From: Ailanthus altissimus
Lineage: Eukaryota; Streptophyta; Magnoliopsida; Sapindales; Simaroubaceae
Direction of reading: 5' to 3'
Length of the DNA stretch: 64,000 nt
NCBI GenBank assembly: GCA_946807835.1
Contig: OX327712.1
Coordinates: 19,300,001 to 19,364,000 of the forward strand
Positions 7,974 through 56,406 of the stretch are shown here, piece after piece. The translations under genes were made by a program, and so were the position numbers. Under the pieces are notes generated by a model. It saw only the letters and a program-made list of their open reading frames with translations, was not told the origin of the DNA and ran no database searches. Numbering within the stretch: the first letter of the stretch is position 1; each line of letters begins with the position of its first letter.

Positions 7974-10769
7974 TCACACTCTTTCACCTGCTTGTTGCAG
8001 AACTCTTCGAAGTTCATCTGCCATTCCTTGTAAGAGAACAGGTTTCCGAATCAATCCATTCATTCCCATCTGAATACACCGCTCCCACACATTTTCCTCA
8101 GCACTCGCTGTCAAGGCTATAATCAGTGGCCAACTATGGCTACGGAACTTCCGAATTCTCATTGCAACTTCAAATCCATCCATTTCTGGCATGTGAAGGT
8201 CCAGAAAAACAATTCTAAAAGAATTTTCAGCCACACTAAGTGCACTTAGGCATTCAAACCCAGATGAAACAGCAACTACTTCACAACCTAACTTCTCAAG
8301 CAGCTTCTTGGTCACAGTCCGATTCACATCATCATCATCAGCTAGAACTACCCGAAGGCCTCGGAACTGAAAGTTGGGGTTTGATTGCTCGGTTGAATTT
8401 GCCGCGGGAAATATGGTTCTTCCATATGATGGTCTCATTTGAAACCTAAGAACAAGTGTCATCCTTTGTGCAAGACCCATAGAATTTGGGGATATCCATA
8501 TGTTACCTTGCATCATCTGCAAATACATATTTTTTAAATAGAAAAGTAAGCATCTCATATTACTAACATTTTAATATTAGCAACATTGTAACAAGCATCT
8601 AATATTATATTTTTGCATATATTGCAATAGTAAGGTAAATGAAGTCTGTGCTGAAGAGTATGCTGCAGTTTAAAGGGCAATTTGATGAAATGTCAAATTA
8701 ACAAAATTTCTTTTCTTAGTCACATATTTCATGTTTGATAATCTTGTACAAACTAAACGATTAAAAAGAGGTTAATGAGTCAAACTGCTTAATATAGGTT
8801 GGGTTATGAACATATTGACACAACAAAATTATCTAACTGCTCAACTAGTTAGACAAGTCAACCTCAACTCAACCTGACTTTCTTCTAGCAAAAACTAGTT
8901 ACTACCATATGAGTTGAAACAAAATGCAATATTTCATTAATACATCCACAAAACTCAAATCATTTTTGATAAAAGAACATCAGTTGTACAAAATAAAAAT
9001 TATAGACAAGCAGTTTGGGAACTCACCTTCACAAGTTTTTTGCACATGCTGAAATTGAGGCCCTCCTTGATTTCATTGCTATTTTGCCTCCAAGCATTTT
9101 TGGTTGAGAGCAATCCATCTGGCTGAGAATTAACCTCTCTAATATCTATTTCAAACTTTATATATACATAGTCATCTGGCTTACTTGACCTCCATAACAT
9201 TGACATTTTATCATTCTTGTCCTCGCTACCACTCCTTGAGGAAACCCGAAATAAAACAGTTCCCCCTCCATCATAGATGTTTAATAGATAACCCACTATA
9301 TGCAAAATCACTTGAAAGGTCCTTTTCTCATCACCTATAACCTGATCAGGCAAAGAGCTCTGAACATCTAATGCGAAGCCAAAGCCTTTGTAAACAGACA
9401 AGCACCTCGCAAGGCAAGAAGCTTCCTTAAGCATGGAATGCAGCCGAAAGGGCCTCATTTCCAATGGGAACCTTCCATCATCTCTCACTGGAATCTCCAT
9501 TGCATCATTAATCAGAGTTGAGAGAACATTGCTGGTTTTCACCAACGTATCAACAATAATCTTCTGCTCAAAGGTCATATTCTCATCATTAAACATCGAA
9601 AGCAGGCCCACAATCGAGTACATTGGTCTCCTCATCCCATGACTCATCACCTTCTGAAATGAGTTCCTTGCCTGGCTTGCCATCATGGCATTCTTCTTCG
9701 CCTGTTGCAATACACGATTTTGCTCGCCTAGCTTCTCTCTCATAAGCTGGGATTCTTCAAGAACTGCAGCATGGGAAAGAGCCACAGCTACCTGATCAGC
9801 AACCACTTCCACTATTTCCATTTCACCAATGCTCCAAACCCTTGAATTTGCATTTGGAAGCACCAAAACAAGTATAGCATAACAAGTATCAACCAATTCA
9901 GGTGTACCCCCTTTGAAGTTTGAAACTCGAAGCATTGGCATCCGAGTTGCTGACACTGCACCAGCCGCATCAGAACCAGCACCACTGGCAGCACCAAGTG
10001 CTGAATCTGGCCTCAAAATCCTCACTCCTTTGCTCTCTCTTATCTCCAACACATCAGGATCATTAATTGGAATGGACAGGTTAAAACTATTTGAAGGACT
10101 AGCTCTCAACTCATGCGTGAGGTTCATCTCAGTTCTAGTCTCATTTGGCATCCAAACTGCACAATTATGTAAATCCAAAGTCTTAGAAAGCTCAACCAGA
10201 GTGGTATATAATATAGTATGCTTATCAAGTGACTTCCTAATTTCCCGCGTTAACATCCGAACGTGCCAACTCGCTTCCTTCTGCTTCTTCATCATTCCAA
10301 CTTCTTGGTCTAACTCCAGCACATTTTGCTTCAAAAACAACTCCCTCACTTTCCATTTCAGAAGGAGAGGGATCAAAGTCAAAAGGGTGATTGCAGTGGC
10401 ACACGAGACAAGGGCTGTTAGGAATTTGGCAATAGTGAGGCATAACATTAACTGGAATGAGTGAGGGCCATAATAAGTCCACCCATTGAGCAAATGGGTC
10501 AATCCACAAAGCACTATAAAAGCTATAAACTGAAGGAGGACCCATTTGAATGGTACATTTGAGCAGCTAACAAAGTAAAGTAGCTCAAGAGGTATTGAAA
10601 AATAGGCTATTGCAATAAAGAAATCACTCACTTTTTGGCAGTCAAGAATTTTCTGTATGCTCCAAAGACCCTCATCATCACAGTTGCAATTTGCATACTC
10701 ATGATCAGTGGCAGAAACAGAGATAATAAGATAAAAAAGCACGAATCCAAGTGTTAATGCTCTTAACAT
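7974..10769 (-). CDS. EIN4: Ethylene receptor, subfamily II (EIN4/ETR2 type)
   Basis: Endoplasmic reticulum ethylene receptor, a negative regulator acting through CTR1. Two coding exons, 9027-10769 and 7974-8516, give 761 aa, close to Arabidopsis EIN4. The first ATG is at 10769. An N-terminal hydrophobic segment (about 5-19), typical of subfamily II, precedes NCNCDD (dimer-forming Cys). Three membrane helices follow at about 50-67, 76-93 and 107-137; the second carries the copper/ethylene ligands Cys88 and His92 in VLCGLTHL. Then come a GAF domain (about 190-340), a histidine-kinase-like region with His377 in MSHGMRRP but degenerate ATP-binding boxes, and a C-terminal receiver with acidic DDDD near 641 and phospho-acceptor Asp687 in [11 protein letters not shown]. 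It could be the ETR2 paralogue; the length and SHGMRRP context favour EIN4. All key residues look intact. Confidence 0.94.
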
Positions 10770-10790
10770 TGTACCCAAGTGACCAAATTT

Positions 10791-35139: not shown

Positions 35140-35941
35140 ATTCTAACAATTAGAATTTGACACTCATTCAATGCGAGAGGTCTTATAATAGAGCTCATCC
35201 AGAATCTCCTCGGATCAAATTCTTCGACAAAGTGCGTTACTTCAGTACTCAACGAGTACATTTTATATTGTAAGACTCTCTAAGTCCACACCCAGTTTGT
35301 TATAAGGAACTTTTTCATACGTCCGTAAACGATGCTCCATACATATGCTACAGATATTACAAAGCAACATATTGAATCATACAAGTTAAGGTTAGTTATA
35401 TATGTATAATTCTTCTATCACCTATACTTGGAAGAGTAAATATATAGATCATCACCGTTAAATCTCTATTTGCTTGACCGTAAACTTATCTCCAGATTTG
35501 TATTTCTATAAAGATATCCATAAACACTTTTTGCAATATTATTTATTCTATGAAAAACTCTTTTCTAGGTTTACTGTTTATGGCCATAAAACTTTTTGAA
35601 ATACAATCTCACAGCATCAAGATATACAACTCACCTATACGACTTGACGAATCTCATATCTAAAAAATTTCGAACTCTATAAGTATCGGACCATACCCAG
35701 CGACATCCAACGGTTAGACCATAAAATGTCTTTGACAAGCGTAGGACCAAAGTATGGTAAATCACTCACAAGCCAACTATGGTGCTTAGGTCAAAGGATC
35801 ACGAATACTATTTAACTCGAGAAGACCTGCCATTAATGGCTTGATGAAATGTCTATTGGAGATTTTCGTAAGTCTGTTTAGTACTTAATCTTTACTGAAT
35901 ACCTGCATCTCTATACAAACTTTCATTAAGCTTGTAGTTTG
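35140..35941 (-). repeat. Non-coding repeat family, copy B (left half of a split copy)
   Basis: It matches copy A through CAACGAGTACATTTTATATT, CGGACCATACCCAGCGACAT, GGTAAATCACTCACAAGCC and TTAACTCGAGAAGACC, then stops abruptly after TTAAGCTTGTAGTTTG. Copy A continues at this point with TTAAGATTAACCATC. That continuation is found 14 kb away, at 50299, so one copy was split by an insertion. Confidence 0.65.
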
Positions 35942-36059: not shown

Positions 36060-36064
36060 GCAGA
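36060..36064. repeat. Target-site duplication, left (GCAGA)
   Basis: GCAGA directly precedes the 5' LTR and is repeated directly after the 3' LTR at 48160-48164. A 5-bp duplication is normal for Ty3/Gypsy integrase. Confidence 0.95.
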
Positions 36065-37502
36065 TGATGAACACTTGAAATTACACATTTAATAAGAGTT
36101 TTACATGATTGTTTTGTATTACTAGTGTATTTAATTTTCTTAACTTAAGTATGTTTACAATATTGTACTTAATTATCTTATAACTGTTTTGTGGCAGGTT
36201 CGGTAAAATAGGCATAACTTTCTACCTAAAGATCCAATTGAGGTGATTCTTAATCCTGTGCAGAGCTGACTCAATGGGCTAACATATTGTATTTCACAAA
36301 GCATTGGAAATTCGAGTGTTTAGAGGGTGAAAATTGGCCTAGAACAGAATTGATCTGCAGTACAGGCCCAGTTTGAACAGTTATCAGTATTTGGCCCATA
36401 ACTATAGAAATACGTATCTAATACGTATGAGATCACTCAATTTGGAAAGATAAGAGCCTTATCTACAACTTTTATGTTTTGAGTGACAGCTAATTCGGAT
36501 TACATCAATTCCAAATTGGATAATCAAGTGGGTGCCCAAGTGATAATGAATGCAAATTATTTTGCCACCATTCTTGACTTTCATCAACCAAGTGGTTCCC
36601 TCCAAATTTGTCTCGATTTATCCATGTTTTTCTATAAATAGGTGGCTTGTTTATGCCTAAAGAATGTAATTAGAAAGTTAGAATTTAGTTCAAAATACTT
36701 TTCCTTTGTATCCATTTCCTTGTACTATTATTTCTCTTGTTTACTATTAAGTCATGTTATTTCTTCTTCCATTTCTTTTCTTTTCATTTAGTTTTATTAT
36801 GTCCAAATAATTTTGTTTAAGCTAAGGTGAAAGGGTGAAGCTCTTGGCAAGGTAATAAGATATGTTTAATATTTATTCATGAATTTAATGCTTCATTTTT
36901 AAGTTATGTAAATTTATATATGATGTATTTATTTTGTTTGTAGAATTAATACCATTTCTTCTAAAGTGGTGATTCTTGATTTATTATTGACAAACTTAAT
37001 ACTTAGCACAATAAATTATTGAAACCATTTACAAGTCTTGGTTTATATAACCTTTCTTGTAAAGTGGGAGTCTTAATTTATTGTAGACAAATATAAAGAT
37101 TGGCATAATAAATACTTGAACCCATTTATAAGATTTGGTGTATAATAATTGAAAGAAATAAATACTAATCAATATATAAATGATAATGAACTTTAATTGC
37201 TATATTTTCCGGTTGGAACCTCCTTTGTGTGAGGATTCCAATTGAGTTATAAAAAAATAAAAAGTTAAATATATTCTTACTTCTTATGCCAAGAGTGAAT
37301 CCCCGTAACCTTAGCTTTTTATTTGAATTGGTTAATTGAAATAATATTTACAAACATCTTATACTGCATTAATTATCTTTAAAGTGTTTATAATTTGTAA
37401 TTTTAATTCTACTTCCCTGTGGATCGACCCCGTTCTCATCGGGTTATTTATTACTTCGACAATCCTGCACTTGGGAATAACTTCTATATTCTGGACGTGT
37501 CA
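36065..37502 (+). repeat. 5' LTR (1438 bp)
   Basis: It starts TGATGAACACTTG and ends TGGACGTGTCA. A TATA box (TATAAATA, 36633-36640) sits about 570 bases in. A pair of about 95-bp direct repeats (TTCTAAAGTGGTGATTCTTG and TTCTTGTAAAGTGGGAGTCT types) lies at about 36950-37140. Differences from the 3' LTR that I found: C at 36144 (T at 46801), G at 36722 (A at 47379) and A at 37005 (G at 47662), all transitions. Confidence 0.97.
36633..36640 (+). promoter_or_regulatory. LTR TATA box
   Basis: TATAAATA in the 5' LTR, repeated at 47290-47297 in the 3' LTR. It probably sets the U3/R boundary about 25-35 bases downstream. The 3' copy could drive transcription into the right flank. Confidence 0.6.
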
Positions 37503-37508
37503 AGTTTT

Positions 37509-37526
37509 TGGCGCCGTTGCCGGGGA
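37509..37526 (+). other. Primer binding site, tRNA-Asp type
   Basis: TGGCGCCGTTGCCGGGGA, six bases after the 5' LTR end. This is the sequence used by Athila and Tat elements and is complementary to the 3' end of plant tRNA-Asp. It marks the start of minus-strand DNA synthesis. Confidence 0.93.
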
Positions 37527-37882: not shown

Positions 37883-38064
37883 TATTTATTTATTAACTTT
37901 TTATTATATAATTTAACATCACTAATCTAACTTCTAATTATTTATCTTTATTTTGCTTTTAGTTTTACATATTTTATTTACTTGTGTGTAATATTTTATT
38001 TTATTTACCTGTGTTTAATATTTTATTTGTATTATTGTTATTGTATTTTGTTTTGTTTCTTTTT

Positions 38065-41000
38065 ATGAGCGGTTGGTTTCGAGATCCTAATTCTCATCGT
38101 TTAGTAAAAGGTAATTTCAAAACTTCCTTTGATAATTTGTTAAATTCTCCTTCATCTTCTCATTCTTCACCAAGTAACACCATGAGCGAAAATCAAATTG
38201 AGGGACTCATAGACCCAGGGGACAATCAGTCCCAACATAATAACCATAACCGACCTAGGACACTTAGAGACTATATGAACCCTACACGAACCGGTGCACC
38301 ATCTTGCTTAATTTTTCCACCGGATGCAACGCATTTTAATTTTAAGCCAGGCATTATCCAACTTTTACCCACTTTTCATGGCTTAGATGCAGAGAACCCT
38401 TATCTACATCTAAGAGAATTTGAAGAAGTGTGTAACACGTATAATGATCAAAATTGTAGCATGAACACAATTCGACTTAAGCTTTTCCCTTTTTCTTTAA
38501 AAGATAAAGCTAAAACATGGCTACAAAACCTTAGGCCAGGATCCATTTCTTTATGGGACGAGATGCAACAACAATTCCTGAAAAAGTTTTTTCCCTCCCA
38601 TAGAACAAATTCTTTCAAAAGACAAATCACCACTTTTGCCCAAAAATCAGGAGAGACCCTTTACCAATGTTGGGAAAGGTATAAAGAATTACTTAATACC
38701 TGTCCCCATCATGGTTTTGAAACATGGAGAGTAGTCTCAAATTTCTATGAGGGCTTAACACCCCAAGTTAGGCAAATGGTAGAAATGATGTGTAATGGAA
38801 CATTTGAGGAAAAAGACCCAGAAGAGGCAATGAACTATCTTGACTTACTAGCAGAAAATGCTCAAAATTGGGACACTGCTGGTACCTGTGAGGCACCTAG
38901 CAAAAATCAAACCACTACATCTAGTGGGGGTATTTATCATCTTAAGGAAGACCATGACCTTCAAGCCAAATTAGCATCCCTTGCTAGAAAAGTCGAAACC
39001 TTAGAAATGAAAAAGAGTGGTCAAATAAAATATGTTCAAGAAATTGTGTGTCACATTTGTGAAACCCATGATCACCCTACCAATGATTGCCCAACTTTGC
39101 CTGCATTTAGGGAATGTCTCCATGAACAAGCCAATGTTTTAAACACGTTCAAACGGTCAAACAATAACCCATATTCACAAAACTATAATCCTGGATGGCG
39201 AAATCACCCGAATTTTAGTTGGAGGAATGACACTCAAGCACAGGCTTCGCAACCACCTTTCCAACCACACCAAAACTTTCAAAATCATCAAGGTTATGCA
39301 CCATATGTCCCACCTCCTAGGAAAAATCTTGAAGAAACCTTGCATACATTCATTGAAAAACAAGAGTCTGTTAATTCTCAAAATGCTCAAACATTTGCTG
39401 ATTTGAAAGATACTCTTGCTAAATTTGCATCTGCACTGAACATTCATGAGAAAGGAAAATTTCCTTCTCAACCACAGCCAAACCCCAAAGGACAACATAA
39501 CTCAAATGCATGTAGTTCAGGAAGCCAACACATGGATCAAGTTAAAGCAGTTATCACTCTTCGGAGTGGTAAAATTGTTGAAAAAGAAATTCCTGAACCT
39601 CATGAGAGCGATGAATCAATCTCTAAGGGCAAGGAAAGTGTTGAACCTACACTTAATGAAGAAAATACCAAACCTTCACCTCCACCCCCATTTCCTCATG
39701 CATTACGTAATACTAAGAAGATGAATTACAATCCTGAAATTTTTGAAATCTTCAAACAGGTAAAAGTTAATATTCCTTTACTGGATGCTATTAAACAGGT
39801 TCCATCTTATGCAAAATTTTTGAAAGACTTATGCACAGTAAAAAGAAAACTGAATGTGAAAAAGAAAGCATTTTTAGCTGAACAAGTAAGTGCCATTCTT
39901 CAAAACAATAATTCTTTGAAATATAAAGACCCTGGTTGTCCTACAATTTCATGTATTATTGGAAGTCATAAAATTGAACAAGCCTTACTTGATCTTGGTG
40001 CTAGTGTGAATTTATTGCCATATTCAGTTTATCAGCAGCTCAATCTCGGGGAGTTAAAATCAACATCTGTAACTCTTTTACTTGCTGATAGATCAATAAA
40101 AGTACCAAGAGGGACAGTGGAGGATGTCTTAGTTCAAGTTGATAAATTCATATATCCTGTGGATTTTATCGTCTTGGACACAGAACCTGTCAAAGGATGT
40201 AATCCGATACCTGTTATTTTAGGTCGTCCATTTTTAGCAACTTCTAACGCTTTGATTAATTGCAGGAATGGAGTAATGAAGCTTTCATTTGGAAACATGA
40301 CACTTAAACTCAATGTTTTTAATATGTGTAAGCAACCATATGAAGAGGAGGATGAAAGTGAAGAAGGTGACATGATTGAAACGATTGTGGAGGATCATAT
40401 TCAAAAAGGGAGTTCTACCGATCCCTTAGAAATGTGTTTAATAAATTCATTTGAGTCAAATATACAATTAGATCCTGAAATCTCTGACATATGTTCTTTA
40501 CTTGACTATGCACAGGTGATTGAAAATAAAAGATGGAAACTAAAGTTTGAAGAATTGGGAGAAAATGAGGATAAAAAAAACGAAATTTTAAAGTTGGAGT
40601 TAAAACCTCTGCCTGAAGGACTGAAATATGCATTTCTTGGAGAGAAACAAACTTACCCAGTGGTAATCGCTTCTACACTCACAAGTGAACAAGAAGATAA
40701 GTTGATTGAATTATTGAAAATGCATAAAAATGCAATTGGGTGGACTTTAAAAGACATAAATGGTATTAATCCTTTGATTTGCACACATAGAATACACCTA
40801 GAGGATAATGCCAAAACTTCCCAACAACCTCAAAGGAGATTAAATCCACATATGAAAGAGGTAGTGAGAGCTGAAGTTCTCAAATTACTTGAAGTAGGAA
40901 TTATCTATCCGATCTCAGATAGTAAGTGGGTAAGTCCTACTCAGGTAGTACCAAAAAAATCTGGAATCACAGTCATTGAAAATGAAAAAGGTGAGTTAAT

Positions 41001-43497
41001 ACCAACTCGAGTCTCATCTAGTTGGAGGATGTGCATAGATTATAGAAAATTGAACTTGGCCACTAGAAAAGACCATTTTCCTTTACCATTCCTTGATCAG
41101 ATTATAGAAAGAGTAGCAGGACATCCCTACTATTGCTTTCTAGATGGTTACTCTGGCTATTATCAAATTCCTATAGCACTAGAAGACCAAGAAAAGACTA
41201 CATTCACATGTCCTTTTGGAACCTTTGCTTTTAGAAGAATGCCCTTTGGACTTTGTAATGCCCCAGCAACATTTCAGAGATGTATGTTAAGCATTTTTAG
41301 TGACATGATTGAGCATTATTTAGAAGTTTTCATGGATGATTTAACTGTGTTTGGAAATTCTTTTGATAATTGTCTTGAAAACTTAGAAAATGTCTTAAAA
41401 AGATGTGAAGAAAAGAGTCTTGTATTGAACTGGGAAAAATGTCACTACATGGTTACTTCTGGAATTGTTTTGGGACATATAGTATCTTCTAAAGGAATTG
41501 AAGTGGATAAGGCAAAAGTCGAACTCATTACACATTTGCCTCCACCAAAAACAGTCAGAGAAGTCCGATCCTTTTTAGGACATGCTGGATTCTATAGGAG
41601 GTTCATAAAAAACTTTAGTGCTATATCTAAACCTCTTTGTAACCTCTTAGCAAAAGATGTATCATTTAAGTGGACTCAAGAGTGTCAAAATTCATTTGAA
41701 AAATTAATCGGCCTCTTAACATCTGCTCCTATCATACAATCTCCTGACTGGTCTTTACCTTTTGAGCTCATGTGTGATGCTAGTGACTACGCTGTTGGTG
41801 CTGTATTAGGACAAAGAAAGGAAGGTAAATCCTATGTAATTTATTACGCGAGTAGAACTTTAAACAGTGCACAAATGAATTACACAACAACTGAAAAAGA
41901 ACTACTTGCTGTAATATTTGCATTAGACAAATTTCGTTCTTACTTAATTGGTTCTTCAACTATTGTATTTACTGACCATGCTGCTGTAAGGTACTTAATG
42001 TCAAAACAAGATGCAAAACCAAGACTGATTCGATGGATTCTATTGCTTCAAGAATTTATTATCACTATCAAGGATAAGAAGGGAGCTGAAAATGTTGTTG
42101 CAGATCACTTATCAAGACTCACACCAGATTCATCAACAGAAATAACACCTATTAATGATTCTTTTCCCGATGAATTTTTATTTTCTACTGTTACAATGCC
42201 CTGGTATGCTAATATTGTTAATTTTCTTGTAACAGGAGAAATGCCACCTCAATGGAATGCTCAAGACAAAAGAAAATTTTTAACGGAGGTGAAAAAGTTT
42301 TATTGGGATGATCCTTATCTCTTTAAATATTGTCGTGATCAAATATTTCGAAGATGCATACCCGACAATGAGGTAAATAAAGTTATTGAATTTTGTCATT
42401 CTGAAGCATGTGGGGGACATTTCTCATCAAAGAAAACAGCTGCAAAAATCTTACAGTGTGGATTTTATTGGCCCACTTTATTTAAAGATACACATGCATT
42501 TTGTGTAACTTGTGAAAATTGTCAAAAGTTGGGATCAATTTCAAAACGAAACATGATGCCTTTGAACCCCATTCTTGTTATTGAAATCTTTGATTGTTGG
42601 GGGATAGATTTCATGGGACCATTTCCGTTATCATTTGGATTTACGTATATCTTAGTTGCAGTAGATTATGTCTCAAAATGGATTGAGGCTATTCCATGTC
42701 GACATAATGACCATAAAACAGTCATGAAATTTTTGAAAGAAAATATCTTAAGTCGATTTGGAATCCCTCGAGCCATTATAAGTGATGGGGGTAAGCATTT
42801 TTGTAATAGACCATTTGAAACATTAATGAAAAAATATGGTATTACTCATAAAGTTGCCACCCCTTATCATCCTCAGACAAGTGGACAAGTTGAATTAGCA
42901 AATAGGGAGATAAAACAAATTTTAGAAAAAACTGTAAACCCAAATCGCAAAGATTGGTCTTTAAGACTAAATGATGCACTGTGGGCTTATAGAACTGCTT
43001 TTAAAACTTCATTGGGTATGTCTCCCTATAGGATAGTTTATGGAAAACCTTGTCACTTACCTGTGGAACTTGAGCATAAAGCCTACTGGGCTATTAAAAC
43101 TTTCAATGAAAATCTTGATTCTGCTGGACACATACGTAAATTACAAATAAATGAACTTGAAGAATTGAGAAATGATGCATATGAGAATTCAAAAATTCAT
43201 AAAGCTAAAATTAAAGCCTTTCATGATAAAAAAATTCAGAGAAAAACATTTGACACTGGTCAGAAGGTTTTGCTTTATAATTCTCGACTTCACATATTCC
43301 CTGGAAAATTAAGATCAAGATGGAGTGGCCCTTTTATTGTGAAACATGTGTACCCTTATGGAACAATTGACATTGAAAATCCTAGAAATGGGAATGTGTT
43401 TAAGGTAAATGGGCAAAGACTCAAGCCGTTTCTAGAAAACCAAGTTTTTCATGAAGAATTTACGTTCCTGTCGGATCCTTGTTACAAGACTAATTAA
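38065..43497 (+). CDS. Gag-Pol polyprotein (Athila-type retrotransposon)
   Basis: One open frame of 1810 codons that makes the capsid and replication enzymes. From the ATG at 38065 the order is: gag domain (about 70-300), CCHC zinc knuckle [14 protein letters not shown] (329-342), aspartic protease with DLGAS at 643, reverse transcriptase with [10 protein letters not shown] (FMDD at 1089-1092), RNase H with [10 protein letters not shown] (Asp1238), then integrase. Integrase has a zinc-binding start (CHSEACGGH at 1444, then CVTCENC) and a catalytic triad Asp1515, Asp1574, Glu1610 with the usual 35-residue D-E gap. No chromodomain was seen. No stops or frameshifts interrupt it. The frame is open 27 codons upstream of 38065, but that part is hydrophobic and low-complexity, so the later ATG ([10 protein letters not shown]) is preferred. 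Confidence 0.96.
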
Positions 43498-43552
43498 TCT
43501 TTTTTTTATATATTTACATATTTATATATATTTATTCTTCTTCTAACATTTT

Positions 43553-43569
43553 TTTTTTTTACTTGCAGG
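43553..43569 (+). promoter_or_regulatory. Probable splice acceptor after pol
   Basis: Just after the pol stop codon a long T run leads to ACTTGCAG|GT (AG at 43567-43568). It has the form of a strong plant 3' splice site. Splicing from the leader to here would make an RNA in which the Cys-rich frame at 43717 is the first long frame. A similar site (ATTTTGTTGCAG) lies downstream of LOG at about 45380-45392. Inference from sequence only. Confidence 0.45.
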
Positions 43570-43716
43570 TTAATTTAGTAGTTTTGTTAAAGTTTTGTTT
43601 TGCACCCCGGTTAAGTGGCGGATAACGGTACTCCGTGATATTTCAAATCGGTTTTGTCAGTTTCCCATAATTACTGATATCTTCTCTTCTTCCCCCTTTT
43701 CTTAAAAAAAAAAAAA

Positions 43717-44265
43717 ATGGATGACATTCTAAAAAATTTGAAAAAGCGTTTTCCCTCATTGCCTCAAAATTCCTTGAAGAAAATTTACCAAGCAAGATGT
43801 GAAAGATTGAGGTTATTAATGATTATGAATATACCTGTTGATTTACGTTGGTTAATTGAAGCCAAAGTTAGGTTGACAGGTGAATTTTCAGACTCATTAA
43901 TTTCCTACATGCCTGGCTTAGGTAAAAGCTCTTTTTCAAAAAAACGAAGAGCAAAACGATTAAATGTTTGTTACAAGTGTGCACGCACGACTTGCAACAC
44001 ACGTTGCCGCACTTTAGGAATGGTGTCTGTAAATCGTGAAGATAAAATTAGGTTCATTAAGGATGGCCTGAGTAAGGAGTCTTTAGATAATATCTTATCG
44101 ACTCTTGAGACGCATCCTAGTGGATATGTGCATATTGCAATTCATGAATTATGGGACATATTCCTAAAAGAACATGAGCGGTACAGTCTCGGGAATCTGA
44201 CTTTAAAAGACCCTGTTTGCCAATTTATAAGAAAATTGGATGGGAAGCCTATCCCCGACCCATAG
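43717..44265 (+). CDS. Small basic Cys-rich protein of the retrotransposon, unknown function
   Basis: Intact frame of 182 codons between pol and LOG; the ATG follows a 14-A run. I do not recognise a closed family. The N-terminal half is helical-looking and Lys/Leu-rich. A basic cluster KKRRAKR (75-81), a likely nuclear or RNA-binding signal, runs into a Cys cluster CYKCARTTCNTRC (Cys85, 88, 93, 97; C-x2-C-x4-C-x3-C), a probable zinc site. The rest includes FIKDGLSKESLDNIL and a Trp/Asp-rich end. The arrangement GLGKSSFSKKRRAKR followed by paired Cys resembles the Cys-rich nucleic-acid-binding, silencing-suppressor type proteins of some plant RNA viruses. The resemblance is short and could be convergent. 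It is not an env-like protein, having no membrane segment. Decayed copies of part of it lie downstream of LOG. Confidence 0.75.
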   Translation: MDDILKNLKKRFPSLPQNSLKKIYQARCERLRLLMIMNIPVDLRWLIEAKVRLTGEFSDSLISYMPGLGKSSFSKKRRAKRLNVCYKCARTTCNTRCRTLGMVSVNREDKIRFIKDGLSKESLDNILSTLETHPSGYVHIAIHELWDIFLKEHERYSLGNLTLKDPVCQFIRKLDGKPIPDP

Positions 44266-44549
44266 AGGGCGTTTAAGCCGTTACTGGACGTAAAATCAGA
44301 GGAAGATGTGAGCCACAATCACAACTACTTGTATATATTTACTATAGCTGTTATTTTTAAATGTTTCATTTCAAACTCAAATGTCTTTTCAATAATCAAC
44401 CACCTATAATCCTTTTTGAAAATTTTGCATTTTAAGCCGACAACCCATGTGACTTTTCCAGCTAACAAATTGAAAATTGGTAAAAGGTATTGAATCTTGT
44501 ACTTCAAGCCAATAGCCATGTGATTTAACTTTGCAATACCTTTTGGCTC

Positions 44550-44557
44550 TATAAATA
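44550..44557 (+). promoter_or_regulatory. TATA box upstream of the retrotransposon LOG frame
   Basis: TATAAATA lies 73 bases before the LOG start codon, followed by an A/C/T-rich leader that includes ACAAACTCAAAATCATTC. That is a normal plant promoter-to-start layout. It suggests LOG may have its own transcript in addition to any spliced retrotransposon RNA. Evidence is positional only. Confidence 0.5.
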
Positions 44558-44622
44558 CATTGCATTATTTCTGCATCTTTGTACAAACTCAAAATCATTC
44601 AAGAGAGAGGGTGAGTGTAATC

Positions 44623-45273
44623 ATGGAAGGATCATCAACTCGTAAATTCACAAAAATTTGTGTCTTTTGTGGATCCAGCCCTGGAAAAACTAGTGAGTTT
44701 ATAGAAGCAGCAGAAACCCTTGGTAAGATGTTAGCTGAGCGCAATATTCATTTAGTATATGGGGGAGGTAGTCTTGGATTAATGGGACGTGTGGCAACCG
44801 CTGCACAAAATAATGGCAGTCGAGTTTTGGGTATCATACCAAAAGCTCTAACTGTTGGAGACATTGTAGGAAAAACAATTGGGGATGAGTTACAGGTATC
44901 ATCAATGCATGAACGAATTTCTTTTATGCTTCGTAATGCTGATGCCTTCATAGCTCTACCTGGAGGTTTCGGAACATTGGAGGAAATTTTTCAAATTGTC
45001 TCATGGGCACAATTGCAAATCCATAAAAAACCCATTGGTTTGTTAAACGTTGATGGTTTTTATAATGGGTTGTTATCTTTTCTTGACTATGCGGTGGAAA
45101 AACAATTCGTCTCATCTGCAGCACGACAGATCCTCATTTCTGCTTCAACTGTTGATCAGTTACTCGATGAACTACAAGCTTTTACACCTCTATCTGATCC
45201 AACAATGAGTCAGATAGATTGGTATACTGATAACAGTGAAAAGAAACGCAGGATAGATTTGACGCTTCGTTTG
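44623..45273 (+). CDS. LOG: LOG-type cytokinin riboside 5'-monophosphate phosphoribohydrolase carried by the retrotransposon
   Basis: LOG enzymes release free, active cytokinin bases from their nucleotides in one step. The frame is intact, intronless and 217 aa long, close to the usual plant LOG length; the stop follows at 45274. Family motifs run in order: KICVFCGSSPG (11-21), VYGGGSLGLMG (45-55, nucleotide-binding), VLGIIPKAL, MHER with the conserved Arg98, DAFIALPGGFGTLEE (107-121, with catalytic Glu121), then WAQLQIHKKPIGLLNVDGFY and an ISAST-type end. The residue after Arg98, usually Lys in plant LOGs, is Ile here. Plant LOG genes normally have several introns, so this copy was probably taken up through RNA. 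It lies inside the LTRs, same strand as pol. An in-frame ATG at 44560 lies at the TATA box and is unlikely. Product identity is very secure; activity is inferred. Confidence 0.95.
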
Positions 45274-45276
45274 TAG

Positions 45277-46710
45277 CCTATCTATTTCTATGTATTTTTA
45301 AGCTTTTTTGTGTGGCTTGTTTTTTTTTTTTTTTTTTGTCTGGCTTGTTTTATTTTTTTTTTGTTTGTGTGGCTTGTTTTATTTTGTTGCAGGTTTAATT
45401 TTCAATAAAAGATGTTTCAGGTGATATCTTCTATATTTTACTCTTTCTATATTTTGACATTGAGGACAATGTCTCAATCTGGTTGGGGGGAGGATAGTTG
45501 ATATATAATGTTAGTGTTAATTATTTTATTTTGTTGTTGTTATCACTTTGTTATGTAAAAAAAAATATCATGAATGGCGTGAGTAAAATGTTCATTTATG
45601 TATTCTTGAGACGCATTCTAGTTCTAGAATGGCAGAGTAAAGAGTACATTATAAACTTTTGAAACACATTCTAATTGGTTTATTTTTAATGCATTTTATG
45701 TATAATTGTTTGTTGCTTAAGTTTTTGGTAACTCTTGCGTAAATAAATTTGTTTTATTATCGATGTATGATTTCAAAATTGTTTAGTTTAAATCACTTTC
45801 TCTATTTAGGTTACTAAAGAATAACTTCTGAAATTATTTCTTGAGAACAATACTAAGCCTTGTGGTAAGATGGATGATTCAATATATATAGCCAAGAGAA
45901 TTTCCATGTTTAAGTATACATATTATTTTCTAAACTCACATATCTTTTGTGAGTGAGTGGAGAGGTTTGAGATAACAGCTTACGAACTTTCATTGATCCT
46001 TTGAAATGGTTAATTTTTATTTGGAATGACATTATTTGGGATGATGAATGATTTGGTTGCTTAGCTGAAGGATAAAAAAAAAAAAAAATTAGAAAAGTAT
46101 TATGGTGATAAATTGCTCTTATGTTATAATGATTCCTTATGTCTTTCAAAAAAAAAAAAAAAGTAAAAAAATTTTAAAAAAAAAAAAAAAAAGAAGTCAA
46201 TTCAGTTCAATAAAGTCTTCATTCAATTTTAGAAGACTAAAGTCATTAGGAAGCAATCTTATCACCGAATTCTATATTCGTAAGATTCGCATTAAATAAT
46301 TAAAGTCTTGAAGCTGGCATTTGACAATAATGGTTTGACTCTAAATATTTGATTTTCCTATCTTTGGATCAATGTTAGTTTGTCTGTCTGTCCTTAAATG
46401 TAACTTTTTCTTGAGCGATTATCTGTTTTCCAACTCCATGAGTGAAATCCTAAGTCATTAAACAAATTATTTACCTGTAAGGATATGGAGTTGAGGCTTT
46501 TACTTGGAACATTTTTAAGGCTATATATGTTGTGGTTTGTGGTAAGAAGGCTTTGGCTTAATTCACACACACACAAAAATATTTTTGGAAGTTATGATTG
46601 AAATAACCTTTATAGCGATTGTGATTTTAAAACTGACGTTTTGTTTGAAATACTTAGGTAGTGTTCAAATTTTATTTATGCTCGAATTGCTAGGGACTAG
46701 CAATAAGCCA
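45277..46710 (+). other. Non-coding 3' region of the retrotransposon
   Basis: 1.4 kb with no intact gene. It starts with three copies of a TTTGTGTGGCTTGTTTT-like unit (about 45307-45380), then a splice-acceptor-like site and an AATAAA at 45403-45408. CATTGAGGACAATGTCTCAA and a GGTTGGGGGGAGG polypurine stretch (45481-45493) follow, a pair of words often found after pol in Athila-like elements. Two decayed pieces of the Cys-rich gene lie at 45574-45680. The remainder is A+T-rich. Confidence 0.6.
45574..45680 (+). pseudogene. Two decayed copies of part of the Cys-rich gene
   Basis: AATGGCGTGAGTAAAATG followed by CTTGAGACGCATTCTAGT (45574-45622) matches GATGGCCTGAGTAAGGAG and CTTGAGACGCATCCTAGT of the Cys-rich gene (about 44063-44122). 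A shorter, weaker second copy follows at about 45636-45680 (GAGTAAAGAGT, then TTTTGAAACACATTCTAATT). LOG thus has sequence from the Cys-rich gene on both sides. Confidence 0.6.
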
Positions 46711-46721
46711 GTTGGGGGGTG
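46711..46721 (+). other. Polypurine tract
   Basis: GTTGGGGGGTG directly abuts the 3' LTR (TGATGAAC at 46722) and should prime plus-strand DNA synthesis. A G-rich twin lies at 45481-45493. Confidence 0.8.
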
Positions 46722-48159
46722 TGATGAACACTTGAAATTACACATTTAATAAGAGTTTTACATGATTGTTTTGTATTACTAGTGTATTTAATTTTCTTAA
46801 TTTAAGTATGTTTACAATATTGTACTTAATTATCTTATAACTGTTTTGTGGCAGGTTCGGTAAAATAGGCATAACTTTCTACCTAAAGATCCAATTGAGG
46901 TGATTCTTAATCCTGTGCAGAGCTGACTCAATGGGCTAACATATTGTATTTCACAAAGCATTGGAAATTCGAGTGTTTAGAGGGTGAAAATTGGCCTAGA
47001 ACAGAATTGATCTGCAGTACAGGCCCAGTTTGAACAGTTATCAGTATTTGGCCCATAACTATAGAAATACGTATCTAATACGTATGAGATCACTCAATTT
47101 GGAAAGATAAGAGCCTTATCTACAACTTTTATGTTTTGAGTGACAGCTAATTCGGATTACATCAATTCCAAATTGGATAATCAAGTGGGTGCCCAAGTGA
47201 TAATGAATGCAAATTATTTTGCCACCATTCTTGACTTTCATCAACCAAGTGGTTCCCTCCAAATTTGTCTCGATTTATCCATGTTTTTCTATAAATAGGT
47301 GGCTTGTTTATGCCTAAAGAATGTAATTAGAAAGTTAGAATTTAGTTCAAAATACTTTTCCTTTGTATCCATTTCCTTATACTATTATTTCTCTTGTTTA
47401 CTATTAAGTCATGTTATTTCTTCTTCCATTTCTTTTCTTTTCATTTAGTTTTATTATGTCCAAATAATTTTGTTTAAGCTAAGGTGAAAGGGTGAAGCTC
47501 TTGGCAAGGTAATAAGATATGTTTAATATTTATTCATGAATTTAATGCTTCATTTTTAAGTTATGTAAATTTATATATGATGTATTTATTTTGTTTGTAG
47601 AATTAATACCATTTCTTCTAAAGTGGTGATTCTTGATTTATTATTGACAAACTTAATACTTGGCACAATAAATTATTGAAACCATTTACAAGTCTTGGTT
47701 TATATAACCTTTCTTGTAAAGTGGGAGTCTTAATTTATTGTAGACAAATATAAAGATTGGCATAATAAATACTTGAACCCATTTATAAGATTTGGTGTAT
47801 AATAATTGAAAGAAATAAATACTAATCAATATATAAATGATAATGAACTTTAATTGCTATATTTTCCGGTTGGAACCTCCTTTGTGTGAGGATTCCAATT
47901 GAGTTATAAAAAAATAAAAAGTTAAATATATTCTTACTTCTTATGCCAAGAGTGAATCCCCGTAACCTTAGCTTTTTATTTGAATTGGTTAATTGAAATA
48001 ATATTTACAAACATCTTATACTGCATTAATTATCTTTAAAGTGTTTATAATTTGTAATTTTAATTCTACTTCCCTGTGGATCGACCCCGTTCTCATCGGG
48101 TTATTTATTACTTCGACAATCCTGCACTTGGGAATAACTTCTATATTCTGGACGTGTCA
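46722..48159 (+). repeat. 3' LTR (1438 bp)
   Basis: Same length and ends as the 5' LTR, differing at the three positions listed there. It is followed by the GCAGA duplication at 48160-48164. Confidence 0.97.
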
Positions 48160-48164
48160 GCAGA

Positions 48165-49270
48165 CATTGTATTATCTGAAGGAGTTCAGATCTGATCTAA
48201 AAGAGTTTAGATCAAGGCCTAGAGTTGGCCACGCTGAGAGATATAAATATTAAGAATTAGCACAGTTAAATGGTAGCTGGTTATAATACTCAGTGAAGAT
48301 CCCAAAGTCAGAGCCTTGTTTGTAATGAAACATAGACCCAAGAATATACTAGTAACTGTATAGTTACAAGAGTTACAATCAGGTGCTATGAAATGTTAGT
48401 TGCGCAAGTATGTTCTCAAATATTGTCCCTGATCTATTTCTACTGATGCGGGTCTATCAGTGGATACATTTATATAGATCAGCATATATCGTACCTATAT
48501 GGTATAGATGATTGTTCATAGCAGACTGTGAGCTTAGAGCCCGTATTAACATATGGGTATTCAGTTAGGACTGGATATGAGACAGACTCATGAGGACCTC
48601 CGATAGACATTCTATGTAAGCCGTCAACGGAGGTCTTTTCGAGTTGAGTAGTATACGTGATCCTTTAACCTAGGAGTTACGATGGGCTTGTAAGTGATTC
48701 ACCATACTTTAATTATATGCATATCATAGACCTTTTATGGTGTAACTGCTGGAGTGTCGTTGGGTATGGTCCAATGCATTTGAAGTTCGGTGTGTACAGA
48801 TATGGGATCTGTCAGCTTGCACAGGGAGTTAGATATCTAGATACTTCGAGACTGTATCCTAGAAAGTTTTATGGCCGCAAGCATTTATTCTGGGAAAGAG
48901 TTTTCATCAGGGTTAAACAATATGACAAATGAGTTTGCGCACATTGTTCAGTGAGATACAAGTCTGGAGATAGGATATGGATGAGTATATGGGGACTTGA
49001 CGATAATAATCTATATCCTCGCACATCTAGGATAACATGGTAGAAGAACTATATGTATGCATTGTCACCTCAGCTTGGATGGTCGGCGCATTGATTTATA
49101 TTTCTATGACGTATGCGTGGGGCAGTGTTCACAGACTCATAGAATAGTTTCATCTAACAAATTGGGCGCGGACCTAGAAAGTCTCGCTATATGAAGTGTA
49201 CTCGTTGTGCACTGGGGCAGTGTATGAAATTGAATTATTTAGTCTAATACTATCAAGCACTATCATAGAA
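48165..49270 (+). repeat. Non-coding repeat family, copy C (inverted relative to A and B)
   Basis: Reverse complement of the repeat seen in copies A and B. TGAAGTGTACTCGTTGTGCA (about 49194) mirrors CAACGAGTACATTT, CTTGTAAGTGATTCACCATA mirrors the TATGGT...TCACTCACAAG region, and TTTTCGAGTTGAGTAGTATA mirrors the ACTCGAAAA region. It lies within the TG...CA insertion that hosts the Athila element. A 71-codon open frame at 48717-48932 is not conserved in the other copies. Confidence 0.6.
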
Positions 49271-55158: not shown

Positions 55159-56406
55159 ATGACAGATGCTATCATCTTGTCTAAAAAGAGAGAGAGAGAG
55201 AAGTTGTCTCACAGTAGTGCTCATGATGCATTAAGCTGTGATGACATCCTATGTGATATCCTTCAGCGGTTGCCACCGGAAACCATTGTCAGATTGATTA
55301 TTGTATCAAAGAGGTGGCTTAGCTGTATCTGCAGCTATGCGTTTCGACACAGTTACCTGAAAAGATGGAAAGTAAGTTCTAATCTCCTGGGCTTCTTTGT
55401 CTGCAATTCCTTGTACCTTGGAAGACCTCAGGGTGGCCTACGCCGTGCTCGATCAGAGCCTGCACTTCCATTATTGTCAACTTCTAAAGAAGGCGATGAT
55501 CTGAAGTACTCTGGGGTCCTCAAACAGCTTGGTTTCTTCGTTGACTCTTCCAATGGCCTTCTTCTTTGTGGCCGCCATCCAAAGACTTACTATGTGTGGG
55601 ATCCAATTACAAAACAAAAGCACCAACTCCCTCGTCCTCGGGTGTACTTTGAAGAGTTGTGCATGGCATTCATTGTTGAGGACTCACCCGACGAGTCTAT
55701 GTGCTACAAGGTTGTTCGTGCAAAATGTGAATGTAAACATGATAAAGTGAACACTGTCATCATTGAGACTTTCCATTCAAAGACTAGTACGTGGTATTAT
55801 TCAACACTTACTTGCAGTTCTACTTTGTCGTTATCTTCTTGGACAGCAGGCACTGTGATTAGGGGTGTCATTCACTGGTTTGCAATGAGGGGAAATATAG
55901 CCATTTATGACCAGGAACATGAAGAGAGGAATATCACTTTGATTGAACTACCGGAGTCTACTGATTTTGATGACCGTGTTCTGGGTGAGTCTTCTGATGG
56001 GCTTTTGCAGTATGGTCAAAGTTGTAAGTCAGGAATGGAGATATGGGTTCTCAACAAAGAACAAGATGGCCTCACATCCATTAGCTCAAGCAAGAGCAAA
56101 TGGATCTTGAGAAATAAATTGAATTTCAAAACAGTGTGGAAGAAGAATCCAAGACTCATGACAGTCTTCAGCACATGTTCTAAATCTAAAGAAACTCAAA
56201 TATTGTCACTTCTTCCGCAGAATTCAGAATCTGTATTCATTAGAAATGGCGATAACATATTTGTTTGTTATCTTAAGAATGGCAAGGTGGAATTGGTTCA
56301 GTATGATGGTCATGGCTCCCCCATTTTATGGGATTTCAGCAGAGTTGTTCCTTACTTCAGGCCAGCTTGGCCACATTCATCTCTCAGTGGCAGTGGTAGA
56401 ATATGA
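55159..56406 (+). CDS. F-box protein
   Basis: 415-aa substrate adaptor of SCF-type ubiquitin ligases, in one uninterrupted exon. The F-box is N-terminal (about 25-68): LSCDDILCDILQRLPPETIV, LIIVSKRWLS and FRHSYL, with the usual LP and W positions. The C-terminal part fits F-box-associated domains of the Arabidopsis type: GFFVDSSNGLLLC, then YYVWDPITKQKHQLP, then GVIHWFAMRGNIAIYD and WVLNKE. The target protein cannot be inferred. A nine-residue Lys/Arg/Glu stretch early in the protein (KKREREK) reflects an AGAGAG repeat. The ATG at 55159 is the first in frame after an acceptor site. Confidence 0.9.
   Translation: MTDAIILSKKREREKLSHSSAHDALSCDDILCDILQRLPPETIVRLIIVSKRWLSCICSYAFRHSYLKRWKVSSNLLGFFVCNSLYLGRPQGGLRRARSEPALPLLSTSKEGDDLKYSGVLKQLGFFVDSSNGLLLCGRHPKTYYVWDPITKQKHQLPRPRVYFEELCMAFIVEDSPDESMCYKVVRAKCECKHDKVNTVIIETFHSKTSTWYYSTLTCSSTLSLSSWTAGTVIRGVIHWFAMRGNIAIYDQEHEERNITLIELPESTDFDDRVLGESSDGLLQYGQSCKSGMEIWVLNKEQDGLTSISSSKSKWILRNKLNFKTVWKKNPRLMTVFSTCSKSKETQILSLLPQNSESVFIRNGDNIFVCYLKNGKVELVQYDGHGSPILWDFSRVVPYFRPAWPHSSLSGSGRI

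Follow-up and report, generated by a model that had tools for sequence, protein, structure and literature searches.

A predicted cytokinin-activating LOG gene in a multicopy, Athila-like retrotransposon family of Ailanthus altissimus

The occurrence of an intact LOG-type reading frame inside a retrotransposon raises the question of whether the element maintains this gene and what the encoded protein may do for it. We studied this in a stretch of 64,000 nucleotides of the Ailanthus altissimus genome (the window, to whose first letter all coordinates refer), in which an earlier note had described an open frame of 217 residues, placed after pol and before the 3' LTR of an element that is complete and young. 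Coordinates, Pfam matches, LTRs, and target-site duplication all agree with that description. We consider it probable that this gene, hereafter retro-LOG, belongs to an Athila-like family of at least 150 copies, stands there beside a gene for a nucleic-acid-binding protein (NABP), is under purifying selection, and encodes an enzyme that is predicted to release cytokinin and is likely to be nuclear and to contact TOPLESS through a basic, EAR-like tail.

The element and its LOG frame

The window element has all the parts expected of an LTR retrotransposon, i.e., two LTRs, a target-site duplication, a primer binding site, a purine tract, and gag-pol:

36060..36064, no strand: target-site duplication GCAGA, left copy, flanking the element
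36065..37502, + strand: 5' LTR, 1438 bp, TG...CA, 3 mismatches to the 3' LTR
37509..37526, + strand: primer binding site TGGCGCCGTTGCCGGGGA
37984..43497, + strand: gag-pol frame with gag, aspartyl protease, RT, RNase H, and integrase (frame list and Pfam)
43717..44265, + strand: NABP frame, 182 aa, viral nucleic-acid-binding family, with a basic stretch (KKRRAKR) before the Cys finger
44623..45276, + strand: retro-LOG frame, 217 aa, with stop (frame list, Pfam, search for structural relatives, and alignment)
46714..46721, + strand: purine-rich GGGGGGTG, directly 5' of the 3' LTR
46722..48159, + strand: 3' LTR, 1438 bp (LTR comparison)
48160..48164, no strand: target-site duplication GCAGA, right copy

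The two LTRs are identical at 1435 of 1438 positions. At substitution rates of 0.7–1.3e-8 per site per year, the insertion would be roughly 80,000–150,000 years old. The gene order is that of Ty3/Gypsy elements, with the integrase last, and the Pfam search on which this assignment relies detected neither a chromodomain nor a second RNase H. The RT motif presumably resembles that of Athila, as does the primer binding site TGGCGCCGTTGCCGGGGA, which we take to be of the tRNA-Asp type; domain content and these resemblances lead us to call the element Athila-like. A second RNase H marks the Tat lineage (PMC6317226). None of the three frames of the element scanned with Pfam matched Athila ORF-1 (PF03078), a domain which according to the same paper is carried by 16% of Athila elements and is therefore not defining for the group.

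Within each LTR, a 97-bp unit forms about two tandem repeats (36955-37144 and 47612-47801). Because an inverted repeat of about 660 bp and 70% identity lies on both sides of the element (35243-35903 and 48556-49214), the latter seems to sit within an older hairpin or terminal-inverted-repeat structure. Elsewhere in the window are frames that we take to resemble an ethylene receptor with a receiver domain (7974-10778, - strand) and a 415-residue frame presumably related to F-box proteins (55159-56406, + strand).

The LOG frame (44623-45273, stop at 45274-45276) starts with ATG and has no internal stop. It matches Pfam PF03641 (E 6.3e-40) and belongs to the subfamily TIGR00730 of NCBIfam (192.9 bits, cut-off 96.35). 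NCBI also provides an equivalog model of the cytokinin enzyme, made for bacterial and archaeal annotation; run here on the window LOG only, it gave 131.6 bits, below the cut-off of 300. The nucleotide motif GGGSLGLMG, R98, and PGGFGTLEE with E121, which the earlier note had read as kept, were all recovered in the alignment. R98 and E121, presumably the catalytic residues, are kept in 112 and 117, respectively, of the best 120 relatives of the window LOG, and in 25/25 and 24/25 of a set made nonredundant at 80%; the PGGxGT motif is nearly invariant among retro-LOG relatives. The nearest solved structure by sequence is 2a33 (At2g37210; E 3.8e-67), which is also the top PDB match of the AlphaFold2 model (pLDDT 84.5; TM 0.95 on the target). 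The fold and the GGG, PGGxGT, R98, and E121 motifs place the protein among the LOG phosphoribohydrolases, and it is from these motifs and this fold that we predict a release of active cytokinin by the enzyme. It has the fold and the nucleotide and catalytic motifs in common with the plant LONELY GUY enzymes (2a33, 1ydh), from which it differs in being element-borne and intronless, in its basic and LxLxL tail, and in its identity of 48–49% over the alignment to five host LOGs of the LOG1/3 type.

Copy number, linkage, and selection

We searched the genome itself (939 Mb, 37 contigs) with the window LOG; the first look yielded 6321 candidates, and 150 of these were scored. Each of the 150 covers at least 216 of the 217 residues at 97–100% identity, and together they make up family 1, which has at least 150 copies; 27 of them, including the window, share the top score, 119 are stop-free, and 31 have one or two stops. 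A second family, found with the query P0178 and about 66–67% identical in protein to the window LOG, likewise has at least 150 copies: the 150 scored span no fewer than 214 of 215 residues at 97–100% identity, with 34 at the top score, 134 stop-free, and 16 with stops. Since the lists are ranked by protein score, intact frames are favoured in these counts. From them we fetched 60 copies, 40 of family 1 and 20 of family 2. The copies are intronless, and the LOG frame is fully open in 35/40 and 16/20 of those fetched, respectively. NABP lies directly upstream of LOG in all 60 (52 full matches over 182 residues and 8 partial ones). On the other side, the window LTR follows LOG in the 8 family-1 copies examined (97.6–99.9% identical). 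The 8 copies examined of family 2 gave no match to this LTR, and the stretch downstream of their LOG can be aligned, at about 74%, as far as the edge of the LTR.

These results tell against the view that a host LOG copy inserted once, into a single element, for which the absence of introns is the one argument: there are at least 150 copies in each family, NABP is the constant neighbour, and identity to the five host LOGs aligned does not exceed 49%. We regard that explanation as refuted and its probability as negligible. Sister elements carry the gene nearly full-length, and there is no near-exact match to the host LOGs aligned; together with the low dN/dS given below, this means that none of the findings which the earlier note named as refuting its reading was obtained. 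A search of the genome with a host LOG as query listed 150 matches, all full-length, single-frame, of 51–53% identity, and retro-type, with no host exon among them.

Selection was assessed between and within families. Between the window LOG and the 20 family-2 copies, pS is 0.675 and pN 0.199, and dN/dS is about 0.13, with a dS (1.75) that is near saturation. For NABP, dN/dS is 0.20 against family 2 (the 17 of 20 copies with a full frame alignment). Within families, we separated changes found in two or more copies (shared) from private ones. The pN/pS ratio of shared changes is the lower in every set: 0.45 versus 1.27 (LOG, family 1), 0.20 versus 0.52 (LOG, family 2), 0.23 versus 0.70 (NABP, family 1; 34 of 40 copies and the window), and 0.14 versus 0.54 (NABP, family 2; 17 of 20 copies). 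The four gene-by-family sets give an odds ratio of 3.26 when pooled (p 9e-4) and p values of 0.055–0.17 singly, to be read with the facts that the two genes were taken from one set of copies, and are hence not independent, and that the copies were drawn from lists ranked by protein score.

Retro-LOG shows the marks of purifying selection. The alternative, that LOG is a decaying passenger drifting without function in an active element, could appeal to the stops in 31/150 and 16/150 scored copies and to the neutral-like private changes of family 1, although such changes are expected in any copy after its insertion. The dN/dS of 0.13 between families, the kept catalytic and tail residues, and a conserved TATA box (see below) lead us to reject it as very unlikely. 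The low ratio among retro-LOGs, the copy number, and the distance from the host LOGs aligned uphold the view of the earlier note that a mobile family has retained a captured LOG as an accessory gene. LOG is, however, not the sole extra gene of the element, given the NABP gene upstream, which the note does not mention. The note's further proposals, that the capture went through RNA, that LOG replaced an env-like gene, and that it acts in meristem or germ line, are possibilities.

The NABP neighbour, the cassette, and the LOG promoter

The intact NABP frame of the window lies between pol and LOG and is a member of the Viral_NABP family (PF05515; E 1.9e-7, 31.7 bits, cut-off 23); its match to Carla_C4 (PF01623) is below the cut-off (18.3 bits versus 20.9). 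A protein search gave 547 relatives, the best 120 of which include named ones from Xanthoceras, Acer, Populus, and Rhamnella, and 95 of these 120 have a C-x2-C-x4-C-x3-C finger under a strict pattern. Among 28 relatives scanned at E 0.01, 25 match Viral_NABP and 27 match Carla_C4. The AlphaFold model is poor (pLDDT 57), no relative of solved structure was found at E 1, and the phage search gave no match. The p12 protein of the carlavirus CVB is, we presume, a member of the same Pfam family. The cysteine-rich NABPs of carlaviruses and of the element have in common the Viral_NABP or Carla_C4 match and a basic stretch beside the Cys finger, and differ in that the element protein is carried by a retrotransposon and known from its sequence. 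CVB p12 is described in PMC7588395 as a nuclear transcriptional activator and a cytoplasmic suppressor of silencing.

One relative of this region carries NABP without LOG. L001 (DAIEQH010000041.1, 3330 bp) encodes an integrase and then NABP, in the order of the window, and no LOG was found in the 983 nt that follow NABP. Against L001, dN/dS is 0.20 for NABP and 0.108 for the integrase. The contig tracks the window to about 44339, with a weak, low-complexity match from 45317 and a firm one (75%) from 45415 onwards. Because it is collinear on either side, LOG likely forms a separate cassette, roughly 1 kb long, that was gained or lost within the lineage, and because L001 has NABP and no LOG in this place, LOG is not essential to the lineage as a whole; this presence/absence argument rests on one contig. 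L001 is filed under a Candidatus Nomurabacteria metagenome-assembled genome and encodes a plant-type integrase and NABP; judging by these sequences, the record is probably contaminated by a plant retroelement. The features of the region around the LOG start are:

44266..44339, + strand: conserved non-coding block after NABP, 93% identical over 74 nt to L001 and near-identical in the family-2 rows aligned
44340..45414, + strand: LOG cassette, approximate limits, missing in the otherwise collinear L001
44547..44559, + strand: CTCTATAAATACA, likely LOG core promoter, identical in the 8 rows aligned
44610..44615, + strand: GGTGAG directly before the LOG ATG, splice-donor-like, kept in the aligned rows of both families

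We aligned the NABP–LOG spacer in 8 rows (the window, 3 copies of family 1, and 4 of family 2). It is largely unalignable between families, with two exceptions: the 75 nt or so that follow the NABP stop, and CTCTATAAATACA, 13 nt long. When the window was compared with one family-2 copy, 1 of 500 dinucleotide shuffles gave an exact run of this length. The TATAAA lies 72–73 nt before the ATG in 40/40 copies of family 1 and 60 nt before it in 20/20 of family 2. Derivation of this promoter from the LTR was considered and rejected, as the upstream region scores 22 against the LTR, with a shuffle mean of 22.6. Because CTCTATAAATACA and its TATA box are kept in an otherwise largely unalignable spacer and are not an LTR copy, LOG likely has a promoter of its own and is transcribed independently of gag-pol. 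If GGTGAG served as a splice donor, LOG would be removed.

About 110 nt across the NABP stop (44230-44339) are near-identical in the window, the aligned family-2 rows, and L001, against about half of the synonymous sites differing in the same NABP gene. From this pattern, the block is likely a cis-acting RNA or DNA element. Its RNA fold is mildly better than that of shuffles (z -2.1), and Rfam gave no match at E 1 in 43400-46721. Between pol and NABP, AAGTGGCGGATAACGGTACTCCGTGA (43606-43638) is identical to L001 1668-1700, and its fold is no better than that of shuffles.

Origin of the gene, its tail, and a possible role

We inferred a LOG tree of 57 rows: 34 retro-type, including the window, 20 host, and 3 bacterial sequences as outgroup. 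The retro-type rows were picked from the best 120 of 7936 relatives of the window LOG, and not every one is known to be element-borne: linkage to the element is shown for two families of this genome, with the Reevesia, Paulownia, and Diplodiscus rows outside that test. The 34 retro-type LOGs form one clade (99/92) and the 20 host LOGs a separate one (100/96); the root is unsure because the bacterial branches are long. A single capture is the simplest reading of this topology. Several captures from other host LOG subfamilies, or a tail inherited from such a host LOG, appear improbable to us: the host rows are 19 of the LOG1/3 type and one LOG8-type fragment, which leaves LOG5, LOG7, and LOGL10-type hosts outside the tree, and the poplar protein P0139 is labelled LOGL10, but all 34 retro rows group together, and the first-branching members end without LxLxL, which fits a gain of the motif within the clade.

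Public records give the name LOGL10 to three poplar proteins (P0139, P0169, and P0214). Of these, P0139 was included in the tree and falls within the retro-LOG clade, hence names of this type may label transposon genes as host genes. Because the host LOG query listed only retro-type matches and P0139 bears a host name, counts of the LOG family may be contaminated. Linkage of LOG to elements beyond this genome is supported by the Xanthoceras gene model P0122, in which LOG is fused to a piece of gag-pol and which alone, among 360 proteins, matches two or more proteins of the element, and by published consensus elements of Citrus and Populus (PMC9289625). Viral contigs were considered as a source and rejected: IMG/VR held no relatives of the single proteins, none with the NABP alignment, and, when searched with the alignment of retro-LOGs, nothing closer than 28 distant LOG-like loci of 25–46% identity.

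The capture of LOG by plant Gypsy elements is itself known, because cases from Citrus and poplar are already in print: LOG-type (YgdH) domains occur in Gypsy consensus elements of Citrus and Populus, according to the available text of PMC9289625, which cites Steinbauerova 2011. Those are LOG-family domains within Ty3/Gypsy LTR elements, as in the window; the two sentences given to them in that text do not describe gene order, an NABP partner, the tail, a promoter, or selection. The same paper reports an AlkB m6A demethylase in Gypsy elements of Phalaenopsis, likewise a captured host-type enzyme in an extra frame kept through a radiation; that enzyme is a different one, with RNA demethylation shown in vitro and no hormone link in the text available. 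The literature searched by title and beginning of abstract, a scope outside which most subscription papers fall, gave no mention of the NABP pairing, the tail, or the promoter. The searched text of PMC7264820 and PMC11963269 has no LOG or NABP terms, and the available text of PMC6317226 has neither 'decarboxylase' nor 'nucleic acid binding'. The tail and the CTCTATAAATACA promoter look new.

The protein ends in the following tail:

45241..45273, + strand: C-terminal tail KKRRIDLTLRL, a basic cluster and an EAR-like LxLxL

LxLxL occurs within the last 14 residues of 103 of the best 120 relatives of the window LOG (out of 7936) and within the last 20 of none of 120 host proteins, 2 of which have a basic cluster near the C-terminus, in a comparison restricted to hosts of the LOG1/3 type. 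In the set made nonredundant at 80%, from which proteins outside 200–250 aa had been removed beforehand, 20 of 25 end with LxLxL (the others being P0121, P0124, P0172, P0198, and P0239) and all 25 have the basic cluster. The entropy at the three tail leucines is 0.25–0.32, against a mean of 0.98; the preceding linker is among the most variable parts, and residues 196–217 are disordered in the model of the window LOG (pLDDT < 50). Conserved leucines, variable linker, and modelled disorder give the tail the look of a short linear motif. Its LxLxL near the terminus, DLTLRL in the window, has the form of an EAR motif and is one residue off the minimal repression motif of SUPERMAN, DLELRL (PMC6479872). 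The pathogen effector HaRxL21 binds TOPLESS through a C-terminal LxLxL (PMC7446885). Retro-LOG resembles it as a parasite protein with the same C-terminal motif, and differs in that the motif is attached to a hormone enzyme, that the element encoding it is endogenous, and that the TOPLESS contact is predicted. LxLxL alone is insufficient for this binding, because ten LxLxL effectors assayed did not bind TOPLESS (PMC7446885). The composition of the tail suggests a nuclear, corepressor-related role.

This raises the question of which part of the protein is selected. It could be the corepressor-contacting, nuclear tail, with the LOG fold kept as a nucleotide-binding scaffold or a general nucleotide hydrolase. 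The low entropy of the three leucines, a LOG of the same fold solved with AMP (5zbk), and the missed equivalog cut-off are in favour of this, which we nevertheless judge rather unlikely: R98, E121, and PGGxGT are nearly invariant, and a mere scaffold has no need of them. Moreover, the first-branching retro-LOGs (P0172, P0198, and P0220, in a tree rooted on long bacterial branches) end right after the basic cluster and lack LxLxL. LxLxL is therefore probably a later addition, and the enzyme part seems the older of the two.

Under the preferred reading, of a cytokinin-releasing enzyme with a nuclear tail, LOG would be transcribed from its own promoter, separately from gag-pol, and the enzyme would convert cytokinin nucleotides to free bases wherever the element is expressed. 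Cells driven to divide or kept undifferentiated might in turn allow more replication of the element and a better passage to the next generation. The tail could hold the enzyme in the nucleus, or recruit or titrate TOPLESS, and NABP could weaken RNA silencing or serve as a transcription factor, as is reported for carlavirus p12. A parallel exists in geminiviruses, whose AC2/C2 proteins are inhibitors of adenosine kinase; the expression of cytokinin-responsive genes goes up, and supplying cytokinin increases susceptibility (PMC7248346). There, too, a parasite is thought to raise active cytokinin, by inhibition of adenosine kinase, where the element instead carries LOG. More tentatively, and with some doubt on our part, the two genes could form the virus-like host-manipulation cassette of an ancient lineage, in which a nuclear, TOPLESS-recruiting cytokinin enzyme with its own promoter and a carlavirus-type NABP, acting as silencing suppressor or transcription factor, would programme division and silencing in the cells of inheritance.

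The presence of LOG beside a virus-type NABP suggests that RNA viruses and retrotransposons have exchanged effector genes, and the question of what the extra frames of plant Gypsy elements do becomes testable. If the prediction is true, retrotransposons maintain a hormone-activating enzyme of their own, which would link the activity of transposons directly to plant growth.
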